DNA from: a virus
IMG/VR virus record: IMGVR_UViG_3300010373_001374
Coordinates: 1-45,193 of that record
Length of the DNA stretch: 45,193 bases
Reading direction: 5' to 3' (one strand)
The notes under the pieces are model-generated. The model did not search any database and was not told where the DNA came from. It saw nothing but the letters and a program-made list of their open reading frames with translations. This document shows positions 11,406 to 31,935 of the stretch, one piece after another. Each line of letters begins with the position of its first letter. The first letter of the stretch is position 1. Both the position numbers and the translations under genes were made by a program.

Positions 11406-11729
11406 CTACTGTCCAATCATGGACAACAGTTTTGCAGTCTTCACGCGATCGGCTGGCGACAGCTTCTTTAGCTGCTCGATCCAAGCGGGATCTAAATCGG
11501 TCTCGTCATGCAACCCAACCAGCCAATTAGCATCCACAGCGTAGGCGTCACACACTTGTGCAATAAACTCGCCGCTGGGCGGGTCTGCGCTGCCTGACTC
11601 GATAATTGATATGTAGCTCTGGCTACACTCAAGGATGCGCGCCGCCTGAGTCTGCCGAAGGCCGGCAGCAATTCGAGCATCTTTCATCCGTTTGCCAAAA
11701 TCATATTTCCACTTAGTGTTAGTTTTCAT
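11406..11729 (-). CDS. XRE (Cro/CI-type) helix-turn-helix regulator
   Basis: A 107-aa protein with an N-terminal lambda-repressor-like fold: 'FGKRMKDARIAAGLRQTQAARILECSQSYISIIESGSADPPSGEFIAQVCDAYAVDANWLV' shows the Q-x-x-x-A turn, recognition helix 'SQSYISIIESG' and the 'W-L' end of helix 5. The last 35 residues ('LDPAWIEQLKKLSPADRVKTAKLLSMIG') are helical. It is probably the repressor/early-gene regulator of this phage, but with no integrase there is no sign of a standard lysogeny module. Its operators could be the 22-bp sites at 13682, 14434 and 17619. Confidence 0.85.
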   Translation of the reverse strand: MKTNTKWKYDFGKRMKDARIAAGLRQTQAARILECSQSYISIIESGSADPPSGEFIAQVCDAYAVDANWLVGLHDETDLDPAWIEQLKKLSPADRVKTAKLLSMIGQ

Positions 11730-11778: not shown

Positions 11779-11852
11779 TGGTAGTGAAATTGGGATTCGA
11801 ACCCAAGACGCTGGAACCACAATCCAGAATGTTACCGCTACACCATTTCACG
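11779..11852 (-). tRNA. tRNA-His (GTG)
   Basis: Folds as a full cloverleaf with 4-bp D stem, anticodon stem CTGGA/TCCAG with loop TTGTGGT (anticodon GTG), T arm TTGGG/CCCAA with TTCGAAT loop, discriminator A73 and encoded CCA. Acceptor positions 2-7 pair, but position 1 (C) faces T at 72. There is no G at -1. It lies in the leftward operon between the 11854 gene and the XRE gene. Confidence 0.92.
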
Positions 11853-12738: not shown

Positions 12739-12966
12739 TTCATCGCCCTCCAATCGGTGCGAACATCCTACGAACTTCGTATCACAACATCAATTCCACC
12801 GACCTATACGAGCACCAATAGCACGTGAGGATATACCAACCCTTGACTCAATTCGCGTTGTCTGCTAATTACGCGCGTATAACTACACCTGCGTAATACG
12901 ACACGTAACAGTTAGTACGCGCACCTGTATTACGCGCCTGTACTAATCTCTAATTAATTCGTAACT

Positions 12967-13022
12967 CTCCCTTTTACGGATGTATGTTCCTTCGGAACAT
13001 ACATGCATCCGGCAAAAGGGAG
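12967..13022. repeat. Long near-perfect hairpin
   Basis: Outer arms CTCCCTTTT and AAAAGGGAG (9 bp), a small internal loop, GG/CC, then an 11-bp inner stem ATGTATGTTCC / GGAACATACAT closed by a 3-nt TTC loop, with a 4-nt GCAT bulge on the right arm. No T-run follows on either strand, so a simple terminator is unlikely. Confidence 0.85.
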
Positions 13023-13056
13023 TAACAATCGTAATTGGCCTGCGGCGCTTTAAGTA

Positions 13057-13100
13057 ACCTGGCTTGGCGTGCTTAGCTGCTACGCAGCACGCAGCCAGGT
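13057..13100. repeat. Hairpin with 8+7 bp stem
   Basis: ACCTGGCT pairs with AGCCAGGT and, after a 2-nt bulge, GCGTGCT pairs with AGCACGC around a 12-nt loop. Its loop region can alternatively form GCTGC-TAC-GCAGC (13076-13088). Confidence 0.8.
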
Positions 13101-13107
13101 GTAATGT

Positions 13108-13139
13108 GGCGCTACGCGCTAACTAGCTGCCCCTACGGG
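13108..13139. repeat. Two small hairpins with TAC loops
   Basis: GCGC-TAC-GCGC (13109-13119) and CCC-TAC-GGG (13131-13139). Together with GCTGC-TAC-GCAGC at 13076 they make three small stems with the same trinucleotide loop in 64 bp. Confidence 0.55.
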
Positions 13140-13383
13140 TTTCAATCCTAAACATAACCTACACCAACGTTTATCAGGAACGCTATTAGCGCTAGGTCTC
13201 TGACTCATGGTTAAGAGTTCTCCATCTGTCTGGAGTAATTCGAGTACCGTAATGTCAATACCGTCTTAAAACGCCTGTAATCACGCTCAAAGCTAACGGT
13301 CGTATCAGCGCTTATTACCAATGCCATAAACTCTATTCAGATACGAAACACCATCGTACCGAAACTAAATGTGGACCGGGCGC

Positions 13384-13640
13384 CCGCCCGTCCGGGCTCA
13401 CCAGATGGGCGTTTCGGGCTCTTGACGTGATGAAGTAGGGATACCGCCCGCGGTGGCACTTTTGGGCATTCAAACCTAGCCCAAAGCCAGTGTTTATGCG
13501 GCTTTGAGCCATTAATGCATACTCTCAAGTTTAGATTTAAATGGCTGAAACGCCCACGGGATGAGGCTTCCCTACCTCGTTCGCTCAGAGGCCCGCCGGC
13601 ACCCCCCAGCCGGCTGGACACCCCTATGGGGCCCCCGGTC
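13384..13640. other. G+C-rich structured segment
   Basis: Contains TTTGGGC/GCCCAAA (7 bp, 13456-13482 area), AAAGCC/GGCTTT directly after it, GGGCGTTTC near 13409 matched by GAAACGCCC near 13546, GTAGGGA near 13434 matched by TCCCTAC near 13569, the palindrome CAGCCGGCTG and CCCC-TAT-GGGG. The two long-range pairs are interleaved rather than nested. Composition differs from the neighbouring coding sequence. I see no gene in it. Confidence 0.5.
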
Positions 13641-13675
13641 GCCCACACACGACATTTCCATTTTTTATAATTGTG

Positions 13676-13704
13676 CTGACTTCGTATGCCATTCGTAATA
13701 CAAT
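13676..13704 (+). promoter_or_regulatory. Promoter with shared 22-bp palindromic operator (site 1)
   Basis: CTGACT (13676) and TACAAT (13699) are spaced 17 bp as a sigma70-like promoter. The spacer and -10 box coincide with a 22-bp element, 13682-13703, that begins TCGTATG-CCAT and ends CGTAATACAA and recurs at 14434 and 17619. Transcription would begin near 13710, which rules out an ATG at 13707 and supports the start at 13731. Confidence 0.68.
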
Positions 13705-13730
13705 AGATGCGTACTGACGAGGTTCTACCG

Positions 13731-13925
13731 ATGAAAAACGTATTGCTTTTCCAGGAACGCCTACTCGTGCGCAAGGCGCTCGAACGCTATTCGGTCCATC
13801 TGTGTGCATTGGCTACCGAGGCTTCGGGCGACAAGAGCGAGAGCCTGCTGGCGGACGCCCGCGAGTGTGATTGGCTGGAACAGCGTTTTAAGTACGCTGA
13901 ATCGATTGTCCTCACCGAAAGTTAG
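13731..13925 (+). CDS. Small hypothetical protein
   Basis: A 64-aa helical protein ('NVLLFQERLLVRKALERYSVHL', 'DARECDWLEQRFKYAESI') starting at ATG 13731, with CGAGG about 9 nt upstream and a promoter at 13676. An in-frame ATG at 13707 lies at or before the predicted transcription start. It stands alone between two non-coding stretches and is followed by hairpins. No family recognised. Confidence 0.62.
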   Translation: MKNVLLFQERLLVRKALERYSVHLCALATEASGDKSESLLADARECDWLEQRFKYAESIVLTES

Positions 13926-13963
13926 CGAGCCGGTCTACGAAATCGAATAGGGAACGGCACGAG

Positions 13964-13995
13964 CAAGAGCCAGCGTATCAATCCGCTGGCTCTTG
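13964..13995 (+). terminator. Terminator-like 12-bp hairpin (H1)
   Basis: CAAGAGCCAGCG and CGCTGGCTCTTG form a perfect 12-bp stem with an 8-nt loop, followed by TCTTT. It lies 38 nt after the stop of the 13731 gene. Confidence 0.7.
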
Positions 13996-14035
13996 TCTTT
14001 AGTCAAGTTTTGACGCCGAAAACTTGACTAAAGAC
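13995..14035. repeat. Perfect 17-bp hairpin (H2)
   Basis: GTCTTTAGTCAAGTTTT and AAAACTTGACTAAAGAC are perfect inverted arms around the 7-nt loop GACGCCG. It shares its first base with the previous hairpin. The rising arm ends in TTTT, the falling arm starts AAAA. Confidence 0.9.
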
Positions 14036-14056
14036 AATACATTGTAGATACAAGAA

Positions 14057-14080
14057 CACCGAGACTTGCAATTCTCGGTG
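14057..14080. repeat. 8-bp hairpin (H3)
   Basis: CACCGAGA and TCTCGGTG pair perfectly around the 8-nt loop CTTGCAAT. Just before it, 14035-14054 holds overlapping palindromes ACAAT-AC-ATTGT and TTGTA-GA-TACAA that resemble half-sites of the shared operator. Confidence 0.75.
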
Positions 14081-14113
14081 CATCGCGGCGACCACATCCG
14101 GCCGGTTTAATCG

Positions 14114-14187
14114 CCTCGCTATTTCTACTCTATTTCAAGCGAGGATAGCGGGGGCGTTTAGCGTCTAGCCCTGTTGACGGTAAACGC
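14114..14187. repeat. Two adjacent hairpins (H4, H5)
   Basis: H4 (14114-14144) pairs CCTCGCT with AGCGAGG over a 17-nt loop. H5 (14154-14187) pairs GCGTTTA with TAAACGC, then after a G/G mismatch CGTC with GACG, over a 10-nt loop. Confidence 0.65.
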
Positions 14188-14190
14188 ATC

Positions 14191-14238
14191 ATAACAAACG
14201 ACCCCGAGCCACACAATCCGCTCAGGGTCTTTTGTTAT
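14191..14238 (+). terminator. Strong terminator-like hairpin (H6)
   Basis: GACCC/GGGTC and GAGC/GCTC stack around a 10-nt loop and are followed by TTTTGTT; ATAACAAA/TTTGTTAT extends the stem further. On the + strand this is a good intrinsic terminator; as the last of six tandem hairpins it may instead bound a structured RNA. From 14239 to 14430 I see no gene or clear signal. Confidence 0.7.
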
Positions 14239-14427
14239 TCATCGCCCGCAAGTACGACCAAGCGCTCAGGGCAATTTATCTGCTAGCTAAACACGGCCCT
14301 GCGTCTGGTTCGAGAGGATTTCCATTGCCCAGCAGACAAAAACAGCATACCGCACCTTCCGGCTGATGCCATAAAATTCGGTATATCCTCCCGTGCCATA
14401 TATCCCTTGAATCGACGAGCCTCCGGT

Positions 14428-14456
14428 CGTACATTGTATGACGTTCGCAATACAGC
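14428..14456 (+). promoter_or_regulatory. Promoter with shared 22-bp palindromic operator (site 3)
   Basis: The element at 14434-14455 begins TTGTATG and ends GCAATACAG, aligning base for base with the sites at 13682 and 17619. TACAGC (14451) serves as a -10 and CGTACA (14428) as a weak -35, 17 bp apart. It lies right before the 14472 gene. Confidence 0.58.
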
Positions 14457-14471
14457 GCAATGGAGGCAACC

Positions 14472-14711
14472 TTGGATATCGCGATACAAAAGCTTGTGAC
14501 TTTCGCCACACTGTTGGCTAGTCGGGCAGGCGGTCAGATGGTGATCGAGTTTACGCCGGAAGAGCAAGCCGCATTTGACGGCGAGCAATTCGAAGCGGTC
14601 GTAGAGTTCGATACCGAGAAGCGCACGGCAACGCTCACGGTTAATCAGATCGTGCGTCAACGTGTTACCGCCGTTGAGTCCGCACCGGCAGATGGCGTCC
14701 CAGTAGTTTAA
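14472..14711 (+). CDS. Small hypothetical protein
   Basis: I prefer the TTG at 14472, because GGAGG lies 5 nt upstream; the in-frame ATG at 14460 overlaps that site and the promoter -10 region, so it would be at or before the transcription start. The 79-aa product has an N-terminal helix and an acidic beta-rich C-terminal half ('QMVIEFTPEEQAAFDGEQFEAVVEFDTEKRTATLTVNQI'). No family recognised. Coupled to the next gene by TAATG. Confidence 0.6.
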   Translation: MDIAIQKLVTFATLLASRAGGQMVIEFTPEEQAAFDGEQFEAVVEFDTEKRTATLTVNQIVRQRVTAVESAPADGVPVV

Positions 14712-14911
14712 TGCCACCACTCTGGATGTCTTTTCAAGTTCTCGTGTGGCGCGGCGGCAGAATCGTAAACGATAGGGTCTTTTACACAAGATCAGCAATA
14801 GCAAGTAAACATGCCGCCGCGCTCACCGAGCCGGCATGGACCGTATGTCGGGAGACCGGCAAAGTTATGGCACGCAACAAAGTAAAGGTGAAAATAGGAA
14901 ATGAATCTTAG
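14711..14911 (+). CDS. Small hypothetical protein
   Basis: A 66-aa protein starting in a TAATG overlap. It has a short Trp/Val-rich strand region ('SFQVLVWRGGRIVNDRVFYTRSAIASKHAAAL') and a basic tail ('MARNKVKVKIGNES'). It overlaps the Acb2-like gene by 11 nt. No family recognised. Confidence 0.55.
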   Translation: MPPLWMSFQVLVWRGGRIVNDRVFYTRSAIASKHAAALTEPAWTVCRETGKVMARNKVKVKIGNES

Positions 14912-15185
14912 TGAGCAATTCGCATACCGCAAGCCGACCGACGACGAAACAACCGTCATGAAATCGCTGTCGGACGCCGCCGGCGCACTGGCAAAAACCT
15001 GTGAGCTGGCAGTCACAAGCAGCGCAGAGCGCACCTTGGCACTGCGCAAGCTGCAAGAGTTCCGCATGTGGATCAATGCCGCCATCATATTTGGCGGACT
15101 GGTCAAAGTGGAAGTACCGGAACTCAACGCGATCACAGGCGAGCCTGGCACCCCGATAACGGGTGAGCCCATCGAGGTGAAGTAA
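14901..15185 (+). CDS. acb2: Acb2-like cyclic-nucleotide sponge (anti-CBASS) candidate
   Basis: A 94-aa helical protein. It follows the layout of the Acb2/Tad1 hook family: 'FAYRKPTDDE' near the N-terminus (aromatic and Pro), a long helix 'TVMKSLSDAAGALAKTCELAV', then 'SSAERTLALRKLQEFRMWINAAIIFGG', matching the hallmark S-x-E-R-x-L-A-L-x-x-L-x-x-x-x-M-W-x-N-A-A-I. Acb2 proteins are small phage oligomers that sequester CBASS cyclic oligonucleotide messengers and so block abortive infection. The C-terminal ~25 residues are an extra Thr/Glu/Pro tail. The accessory position supports an anti-defence role; the call rests on pattern matching. Confidence 0.7.
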   Translation: MNLSEQFAYRKPTDDETTVMKSLSDAAGALAKTCELAVTSSAERTLALRKLQEFRMWINAAIIFGGLVKVEVPELNAITGEPGTPITGEPIEVK

Positions 15186-15770: not shown

Positions 15771-15846
15771 CCCCCTATCGTCTAGAGGCTAAGGACACCG
15801 CCCTTTCACGGCGGTAACGCCGGTTCGAATCCGGCTAGGGGAGCCA
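15771..15846 (+). tRNA. tRNA-Glu (TTC)
   Basis: A clear cloverleaf: D arm GTCT/GGAC, anticodon stem CCGCC/GGCGG with loop CTTTCAC (anticodon TTC), T arm GCCGG/CCGGC with TTCGAAT loop, discriminator G and encoded CCA. Positions 2-7 of the acceptor pair, but C1 faces A72. It lies 4 nt after tRNA-Met and 16 nt before the RNA ligase gene. Confidence 0.94.
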
Positions 15847-17612: not shown

Positions 17613-17641
17613 TTTACCTTGTATTCCATACGTAATACAAC
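17613..17641 (+). promoter_or_regulatory. Promoter with shared 22-bp palindromic operator (site 2)
   Basis: The element at 17619-17640 is TTGTATT, 8 nt, AATACAA, a perfect 7-bp inverted repeat, and aligns with the sites at 13682 and 14434. TACAAC (17636) is a -10 with TTTACC (17613) as -35, 17 bp apart. A TTGACG at 17592 is another possible -35 for an overlapping start. Confidence 0.7.
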
Positions 17642-17661: not shown

Positions 17662-17955
17662 GTGACCACATACGGCGAAATCATCAGACAGATTCCCGAG
17701 CCGGGAGATCTGACAGAAAGAGCGGACGAAACGATTAAAGAATCTGCCGCCACGGTCTTAGAATCGCTCGTTGACCACCTGGACCGCCGAGGTTGCGCCC
17801 GCGCGATCATGCCGGCCGTCGTAACGGATGAAGTGATTAGCCTCGTGCTCGATCCGCTCCGCAAGAGAAAGTGGAACGTCAACATCAAGGACATTGAAAA
17901 CGGCGCGCGCCTGTTGACCATTGACGCCCGAAAACCAGCGAGTAAGCGCTCATGA
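17662..17955 (+). CDS. Hypothetical protein under shared-operator promoter
   Basis: A 97-aa GTG-start protein with CAGGAG about 8 nt upstream and the palindromic promoter directly before it. Predicted helical N-terminal two thirds ('DLTERADETIKESAATVLESLVDHL') and a beta-like end 'WNVNIKDIENGARLLTI'. No family recognised. Its TGA overlaps the next ATG. Confidence 0.6.
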   Translation: MTTYGEIIRQIPEPGDLTERADETIKESAATVLESLVDHLDRRGCARAIMPAVVTDEVISLVLDPLRKRKWNVNIKDIENGARLLTIDARKPASKRS

Positions 17956-29866: not shown

Positions 29867-30248
29867 TAACCCGCCCAGCATTGCCAGCGTAAATCAACAC
29901 CTGAGCAGGCTAGAGAACCGTTTAGACATTCTCTTGAAGCGCTTTGACGTACTCGCCAATCGGTTTTGCCTGTATTGGATCGACGAGCGCAAATCGCCGG
30001 CCGTCGGCATCATTGTGAAACGTGGACTCAACCGCGACAAGAAAGAGTGTGCGGACATCTTCATTATCAGCTCTGAGCTGAGCGCGAACTACATCACAAC
30101 CGACAAGCTCAAAGTTGAGAAAGACGAATCCAAAAACCAACGGTGGGAGCCGCTGGTACTCGATCAAAAGATGTTCGCGGAAGCGCACAATCTGATCGAG
30201 CAAAGTAAGGACGCGCCGCCTGATGACGGCAACAGCGCTCTTATCTAG
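29856..30248 (+). CDS. Hypothetical protein before terminase
   Basis: I chose ATG 29856 (AAAGGGA upstream; overlaps the previous stop) over a GTG at 29817. The 130-aa product has a helical N-terminus ('SVNQHLSRLENRLDILLKRFDVLANRFCLYWID') and a beta/alpha C-terminal half. It overlaps the terminase gene by 26 nt. It could be a small terminase, given its position, but no HTH is evident. Confidence 0.58.
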   Translation: MAANNPPSIASVNQHLSRLENRLDILLKRFDVLANRFCLYWIDERKSPAVGIIVKRGLNRDKKECADIFIISSELSANYITTDKLKVEKDESKNQRWEPLVLDQKMFAEAHNLIEQSKDAPPDDGNSALI

Positions 30249-31935
30249 GCTCGACGAGAACCGCCAAGCACGCGCCCGTTTAAAAATGCTCTGGATGACC
30301 CGGCCGGATTTACGGCCGGCGATCCGTGCGCGCTGCACCGGCGATCCCAACGATCTGCAATCGCTCAAGGATGCTTTTAAATTCTGGGCGAATCACTTTT
30401 GCTTCACCCACAACGAGCACAAGCCACCGCGCGAGCGCGTGCAACCGCTGTTGCTTTGGGAGCTGCAAGAGGAAATCTCAGACGTAATCATCGAGAACGT
30501 TTTTAAAGCGTCCGAGAATGAAAACTATGAGTGGAACGCCTATGGCGACAAAGCCCGCATGATGGCGTGGACGTTCCTAAATCTGCTGTTGATTCAATGG
30601 CTCTGGCAGTTTCATGGGATCTCTACGGTCATCACGTCGAAAACATTGGAAGACGTTGACAGCCAAAGCGACATGAACACGCCCTTTCAGAAATTGCGTT
30701 TTCAGATCGAATTGCAATACAAGCAAGCACCGTGGCTATTTCCCGAATCATTCGACATTGGCAACAACGAGCAGTACAAGACCGGGCTGATCGCCTGCAG
30801 CAATGGCGGATCCCAGATCGCCGGACTGTCACCCAAGGGCAAAGCCATGAGACAGGCCCGCGCCCTGATCTGGTTTGGCGATGAGTTCCCGCACACTGAC
30901 ACAGATATTGAATTGTGGGACGCCGCTTGTGGAACCGTCAAAGTACGGATCGTAGGCGGAACGCCGAACGTACAGCGCGGCCGTAACTGCAAAGCCTACA
31001 AGCTTCGGTACAACAAAGAAGGCGAGCAATGCCACATATTTGAAATGCCTTGGTGGCGCCACCCAGAGCGCGCAGTCGGCTTGACGAAAAAGCCGGATGG
31101 CACGTACACGTCACCGTGGTGGGAGCAGCAATGCGCGACCAAGAGCAAGCAAGTGCTTGCCGCCGAGTTCCTCATGGACTGGAACGTCGCCATGGGAGCC
31201 ACCGCCCTTTACGCTTTCCGCGAGGTGTCTTGTGTATTTGGACTCAAGCCCGATCCATTCGGCGGCCCGATCTTCCGTTCGTGGGATCCCGGCAAAAGCT
31301 ACGGTGTTTGCTGGGCGCAGCGTGACCGCTGGGGCAAGCTCCGGTTATTGCGCGAGCTGATACTCACCGAAGAGGACGTAAGCGAGCAAGGCAAGACGCT
31401 ACTTGCTGCAATCGCAGAGCGGGCAATCGGCATAACTGATCGGTACTTCCCAGACTTCGAAATCCTCGACGTGGGCGACCCTTACGCCAGCCGGACGCAA
31501 ACGTCATTCCAGGAAAAAACCGAATACGAAATGCTCTACACGAATCACAAGATCCGGGTGCAGAGCGCATATATGTACCAGATTCCATCAAAGGAACGCC
31601 GTAAAAAGCGCATCGAGATATTAAACGATCTGATGGGCAAAGACGTGACCGACGACGGCGGCAGGATGACGCCCGGTTTCCTGATCGACCCGCGCACTTG
31701 CCCGATCACTTATGAAGCGATCAAGCAAGAGTACCGCTGGAAGATGGACAAGGAGACGGGCGAGCGCACGGACGAGATCGTCAAGGCGCACCCGTTCACT
31801 GAGGCAATTGACACGATAGGTATGATAGCCGTAAAGCTATTTGATTCCAAACGGAATACAACCGGCGAGAGCGGCAGAACCCCCAGACCTAAGCGAAGGC
31901 AGTCTACAGGCTGGAGACGCACAGGAAGGATGTAG
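30223..31935 (+). CDS. terL: Terminase large subunit
   Basis: A 570-aa packaging motor. The ATPase half has a deviant Walker A, 'YGDKARMMAWTF' near 105-117, Walker B 'ALIWFGDEF' near 215-223 (catalytic Glu after Asp), and a coupling 'GGTPN' near 245. The RNase H-like nuclease half has acidic residues at 'RSWDPGKSYGV' (about 354), 'ILDVGDPY' (about 413) and 'EAIDTIGM' (about 527), consistent with three metal-binding Asp. It cuts and pumps DNA into the prohead through the portal encoded next. Confidence 0.85.
   Translation: MTATALLSRLDENRQARARLKMLWMTRPDLRPAIRARCTGDPNDLQSLKDAFKFWANHFCFTHNEHKPPRERVQPLLLWELQEEISDVIIENVFKASENENYEWNAYGDKARMMAWTFLNLLLIQWLWQFHGISTVITSKTLEDVDSQSDMNTPFQKLRFQIELQYKQAPWLFPESFDIGNNEQYKTGLIACSNGGSQIAGLSPKGKAMRQARALIWFGDEFPHTDTDIELWDAACGTVKVRIVGGTPNVQRGRNCKAYKLRYNKEGEQCHIFEMPWWRHPERAVGLTKKPDGTYTSPWWEQQCATKSKQVLAAEFLMDWNVAMGATALYAFREVSCVFGLKPDPFGGPIFRSWDPGKSYGVCWAQRDRWGKLRLLRELILTEEDVSEQGKTLLAAIAERAIGITDRYFPDFEILDVGDPYASRTQTSFQEKTEYEMLYTNHKIRVQSAYMYQIPSKERRKKRIEILNDLMGKDVTDDGGRMTPGFLIDPRTCPITYEAIKQEYRWKMDKETGERTDEIVKAHPFTEAIDTIGMIAVKLFDSKRNTTGESGRTPRPKRRQSTGWRRTGRM

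Follow-up and report, generated by a model that had tools for sequence, protein, structure and literature searches.

A six-hairpin array in the early region of a tailed phage as a candidate bidirectional terminator block

Six hairpins follow one another at positions 13964-14238 of the 45,193-base virus record that we analyzed over its whole length (hereafter, the window), and this array is a real, non-random feature. The hairpins are of two kinds rather than six equals: a terminator-like pair, H1 and H6, encloses the others. We consider it about an even bet (probability roughly 0.5) that the array is a bidirectional transcription-termination block insulating two separately controlled early units. 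Termination with insulation is the most likely role for the array, and a mostly ordinary one. If this reading is true, the array shows how an unstudied phage lineage separates control of its small early units, and it supplies two strong, short, bidirectional terminators.

An inverted-repeat search recovered all six hairpins at the coordinates given in an earlier note on this DNA. H1 (13964-13995, + strand) is a perfect 12-bp inverted repeat with an 8-nt loop and a T-rich tail, and H3 (14057-14080, strand unassigned) is a perfect 8-bp hairpin that is terminator-like in the leftward direction only; both stems have the lengths originally claimed. H2 (13993-14037, both strands) had been described as a perfect stem of 17 bp. 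Its pairing is indeed perfect, but the measured stem is 19 bp, forming an AT-rich palindrome with a 7-nt loop and a T-tract on neither side. H2 is the strongest hairpin of the array and H4 (14113-14153, strand unassigned), for which two pairings compete, is the weakest. H5 (14154-14187, strand unassigned) pairs at 11 of 12 positions and lacks a T-tract, while H6 (14191-14238, + strand) pairs at 17 of 19 and carries the T-tract previously ascribed to it directly after the stem (TTTTGTTATT). According to the inverted-repeat coordinates, H1 and H2 have three bases in common, so the two cannot both form fully. Loops and arms vary from hairpin to hairpin, and therefore the array does not contain a repeated binding site. 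The stretch is also gene-free, as had been proposed: coding-signal analysis found the flanking open reading frames (13731-13925 and 14460-14711) to be coding and 13926-14459 to be without coding signal on either strand. A short gene concealed within the array was ruled out by the hairpin and coding-signal analyses.

Both folding stability and hairpin density exceeded the values obtained from shuffled sequence. The 321-nt array stretch folded at -126.5 kcal/mol, with z-scores of -7.58 on the + strand and -7.60 on the - strand, and none of 100 shuffles was as stable. When non-overlapping hairpins with stems of at least 8 bp and no more than one mismatch were counted, four started within 260 nt in the array. 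This was the highest local density in the window, whereas the maximum per 260 nt in 12 shuffled genomes was always two.

To score every hairpin in the window, we used d, an intrinsic-terminator score of the d'Aubenton-Carafa type in our own implementation. The top two + strand candidates in the 45,193 nt were H1 (d = 15.3) and H6 (d = 15.1), and the next-best candidates scored 10.2 and 1.9. As second-best on this strand, H6 is a credible predicted transcription end, in keeping with the role first suggested for it. Both hairpins combine a stable GC-rich core stem (-16.7 kcal/mol for H1, -13.2 kcal/mol for H6) with a T-rich tail directly after it (TTGTCTTTAG with a score of 3.86 for H1, and a score of 4.93 for the tail of H6). 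Across 40 shuffled genomes, + strand sites with d ≥ 15 averaged 0.35 per genome, so chance is unlikely to have placed two of them within one gene-free gap at a spacing of about 240 nt. Nevertheless, up to three such sites occurred in a single shuffled genome, which counts against the termination reading. No U-tract follows H2 through H5 on the + strand. Because they lack a T-tract, H2 (d = -24.6), H4 (-47.3), and H5 (-34.8) fail as + strand terminators, and thus a termination block explains the array only in part; H3 is likewise not a + strand terminator by this score. Leftward, d was positive for H1 (9.3), H3 (1.6), and H6 (2.2), but these scores are weaker evidence because the minus strand is T-rich, which inflates d and makes positive scores common there. 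It had been argued from the number of hairpins that one would be enough for a single terminator. This argument is weak, given that H1 and H6 score as two separate terminators and three hairpins score leftward.

The window encodes tailed-phage genes, nearly all of which point rightward; the exception is a block running leftward from about 12740 to 10536. Its replication and regulatory genes include a RecT-like gene, a primase-helicase, an SNF2-type helicase, Dam, and an HTH regulator, and further genes encode Acb2, DUF3850, an RNA ligase, terminase, a head-tail adaptor, a head protease, and tail proteins. Between the leftward block and the early genes that point rightward lies a divergent region without genes (12740-13700). 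The array lies directly 3' of the first of these rightward genes (13731-13925, + strand), with the next early operon beyond it. This small early gene encodes 64 amino acids, has a GAGG ribosome site, and falls in no known family. Its coding score was +0.21 in its own frame versus -0.42 and -0.37 for the remaining + strand frames.

A promoter for the 64-amino-acid gene had been placed near 13676. The site there, CTGACT-17-TACAAT (13676-13704, + strand), matches at 9 of 12 positions, which alone is chance-level, but it is supported by a repeated 22-bp dyad, TTGTATNCCNTNCGNAATACAA, that overlaps it at 13682-13703 (+ strand). Other copies stand at 14434-14455 (+ strand), just 5' of the next early operon, and at 17619-17640 (+ strand), where a perfect consensus match precedes the gene at 17662; a weak fourth copy also matches the consensus at 31840-31861 (strand not given). 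Altogether, the dyad had six matches at four places in the window versus 0.02 expected, an expectation that is somewhat flattering as the consensus was drawn from these very copies. Three of the copies (13682, 14434, and 17619) are thus positioned just 5' of genes. Judged by its sequence and placement, the dyad is probably an operator, with a repressor operator or a phage promoter element being the probable choices. Its pattern fits the operator of an XRE-type repressor, and the HTH protein encoded at 11406-11729 would be the obvious candidate to bind it. Since the copies at 13682 and 14434 flank the array, we infer that the array separates two separately controlled early units. The second begins with a gene at 14460-14711 (+ strand), whose start may be the TTG at 14472, and leads to the Acb2-like gene. 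The block sits exactly between the end of the 64-amino-acid gene and the next dyad copy. However, there is no hairpin block 5' of the copy at 17619, which also weighs against the termination reading.

If the array is a terminator block, polymerase from the dyad-controlled promoter near 13676 would transcribe the 64-amino-acid gene and halt at H1. Any polymerase passing H1 would meet H6 before the second dyad-controlled promoter near 14434, and leftward antisense polymerase would meet H6, H3, and H1. The genes on either side would then answer to their own promoter only, probably under the HTH repressor. By conjecture, H2, H4, and H5 might serve as stable spacer hairpins, with read-through RNA being protected or processed by them; for H2, RNase III processing or protection of such RNA is likewise a guess. 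The earlier note had instead proposed one RNA running from 13676 to H6. Although its promoter and its predicted end are both supported, a single continuous RNA is not favored because a gene with coding signal follows the promoter and H1, the top-scoring + strand terminator, precedes H2-H6.

The main rival to the terminator block is a structured small RNA of ~195 nt (about 14045-14240, comprising H3-H6) that would start from a promoter of its own overlapping H2, terminate at H6, and act in early infection as a regulator or decoy. We regard it as possible but doubtful. The array without H1 and H2 (14040-14245) still folded with a z-score of -5.46 and none of 200 shuffles was as stable, the segment is non-coding with a good terminator at its end, and the presence of H6 after H1 is more sensible if a transcript begins between them. 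A possible start is the weak promoter-like TTGACG-17-GACAAT (14010-14038, + strand), which overlaps H2 just upstream of H3-H6, yet the four promoter-like sites in the array region compare with 4.4 in shuffles and are therefore at chance level. Furthermore, H3-H5 alone (14040-14190) was just modestly unusual (z-score of -3.0, with 1 of 200 shuffles as stable), and H3 doubles as a leftward terminator by score. No homologue of the segment was found, and the Rfam 15 covariance models returned nothing for the array at gathering score, with a permissive search giving only chance microRNA-like hits (E ≥ 1). The fuller proposal of a new early phage small RNA (H3-H6 at ~195 nt, or H2-H6) beside an Acb2-type anti-defense operon, with terminators on both sides and outside known RNA families, seems unlikely to us. 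If true, it would represent a new phage RNA adjoining an anti-defense operon.

We also noted several features around the early genes. The Acb2/Tad1 hairpin-domain protein (Pfam PF24729, E-value 2.7e-9) is encoded at 14901-15185, adjoining the DUF3850 gene, and by this family match is likely an anti-CBASS or anti-Thoeris counter-defense. The repeat GGTATATCCTCxCGTGCxAT, matching at 18 of 20 positions, occurs in opposite orientation at 12818-12837 (- strand) and 14380-14399 (+ strand), that is, 5' of the leftward operon and of the rightward operon at 14460, and is perhaps a second shared regulatory site. Genes for tRNA-Glu (15771-15846, + strand) and tRNA-His (11779-11852, - strand) are present, and the RNA ligase gene directly follows tRNA-Glu, which possibly points to tRNA repair against host nucleases. 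The gene-free stretch at 12850-13650, near the array and much larger, may hold a large non-coding RNA. Its fold had a z-score of -6.65 on the + strand, with -7.2 on the - strand for 12850-13706, and it contains nested long-range helices (13374-13385 with 13629-13640, and 13397-13415 with 13547-13565) as well as long hairpins at about 12966-13025 and 13056-13100. Rfam gave no match for 12850-13650. Short repeats cluster at 12870-12945 around TTACGCGC / GCGTAAT, with 14-nt near copies at 12868 and 12929, and appear iteron-like or operator-like.

As another possibility, the palindromes could act at the DNA level, forming a site for replication initiation, recombination, or protein binding with H2 at its core. 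The perfect pairing of H2 on either strand, its lack of a T-tract, and the replication genes (primase-helicase, RecT-like, and SNF2-like) in the block to the left of the array would suit such a site. We nonetheless judge it improbable: the skew shows no change at the array, giving no origin signal, and the differing loops and arms are not those of a repeated binding site. The replication or packaging site suggested previously is unsupported, given the same lack of a skew change, the 16 kb that separate the array from terminase, and the absence of the cluster in a syntenic relative. A packaging site (cos or pac) was rejected as TerL lies at 30223-31935, not beside the array. We likewise rejected H2 as a dispersed repeat or mobile palindrome, as it had no second copy in the window and none in viral contigs. 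Among ~85,000 bacterial genomes, an H2-like palindrome matched a single unrelated Oscillospiraceae contig, which is near chance by our own estimate.

Relatives were sought with viral-contig scans, a genome-contig protein scan, and BLAST against phages and plasmids. These searches found one syntenic relative, IMGVR_UViG_3300032893_000073, with an RNA ligase 65% identical and a terminase about 30% identical, and otherwise only distant carriers of the RNA ligase. Apart from this one relative, the phage is an orphan lineage. Structural-gene order matches overall in the relative and its early region is likewise divergent, but it has neither a hairpin cluster nor DNA similar to the array. The array was also absent from the distant RNA-ligase carriers, and no stretch homologous to its DNA was found in the viral-contig, phage, or plasmid searches. 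Another reading is that the array has no function apart from H1 or H6 and is otherwise leftover palindromic sequence between genes. Its absence from the syntenic relative speaks for this, as does the want of any relative close enough to show retention of the stems. We hold this reading to be very unlikely, given that phage genomes are compact, the excess over shuffles is strong, and the two best-scoring terminators, which bound the block, would hardly be debris. The relative has perfect T-tailed hairpins of its own, both between tRNAs and where genes converge, including one at 29956-29990 with d = 24.8 in one direction and 20.1 in the other, and we counted this style in favor of the terminator reading. 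As a separate observation, the record (1-45193) opens at a start codon and closes at a stop codon, and its gene order is that of the relative circularly permuted and reversed, so it may represent an almost complete genome, circular or permuted, whose cut points fell at gene edges.

Several known systems offer comparisons. Terminator-ended small RNAs of bacteria and phages resemble the array in being non-coding and strongly folded with a terminator at the end, but the array segment differs in lacking a convincing promoter of its own, a homologue, or an Rfam match. In phage HK022, the distance from the PR start to the downstream putR is about 270 nt (PMC9378689). Here, H1 and H2 form two strong adjoining stem-loops, overlapping by 3 nt, ~260 nt 3' of an early promoter, and their shared bases make them compete slightly. 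Such a pair could constitute an element of the put or leader type that acts in the nascent RNA, by antitermination or attenuation, to let polymerase pass later terminators. This is the least probable explanation that we weighed. The put stems are bulged with a triplex, whereas H2 is a simple perfect hairpin and H1, with T-rich sequence following it, has the score of a terminator; perfect stems argue against put identity, and the next operon apparently has its own promoter.

The terminator block can also be compared with mobile elements, in which an insulating terminator is found in Tn916 (PMC11658703) and conjugation operons carry multiple terminators (PMC8955417). Like these, the array would stand at the boundary of a unit under separate control, a place where control would be spoiled by read-through or spurious transcription. 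They were studied by experiment, whereas termination at the array is a prediction, and no antitermination gene was identified here. Relative to tandem or bidirectional intrinsic terminators, the array differs in what lies between H1 and H6: four hairpins, the strongest one included, none of which has a T-tract on the transcribed strand. H1 and H6 themselves are like such terminators in these respects: a GC-rich stem, a short loop, a T-rich tail, and a position 3' of a gene.
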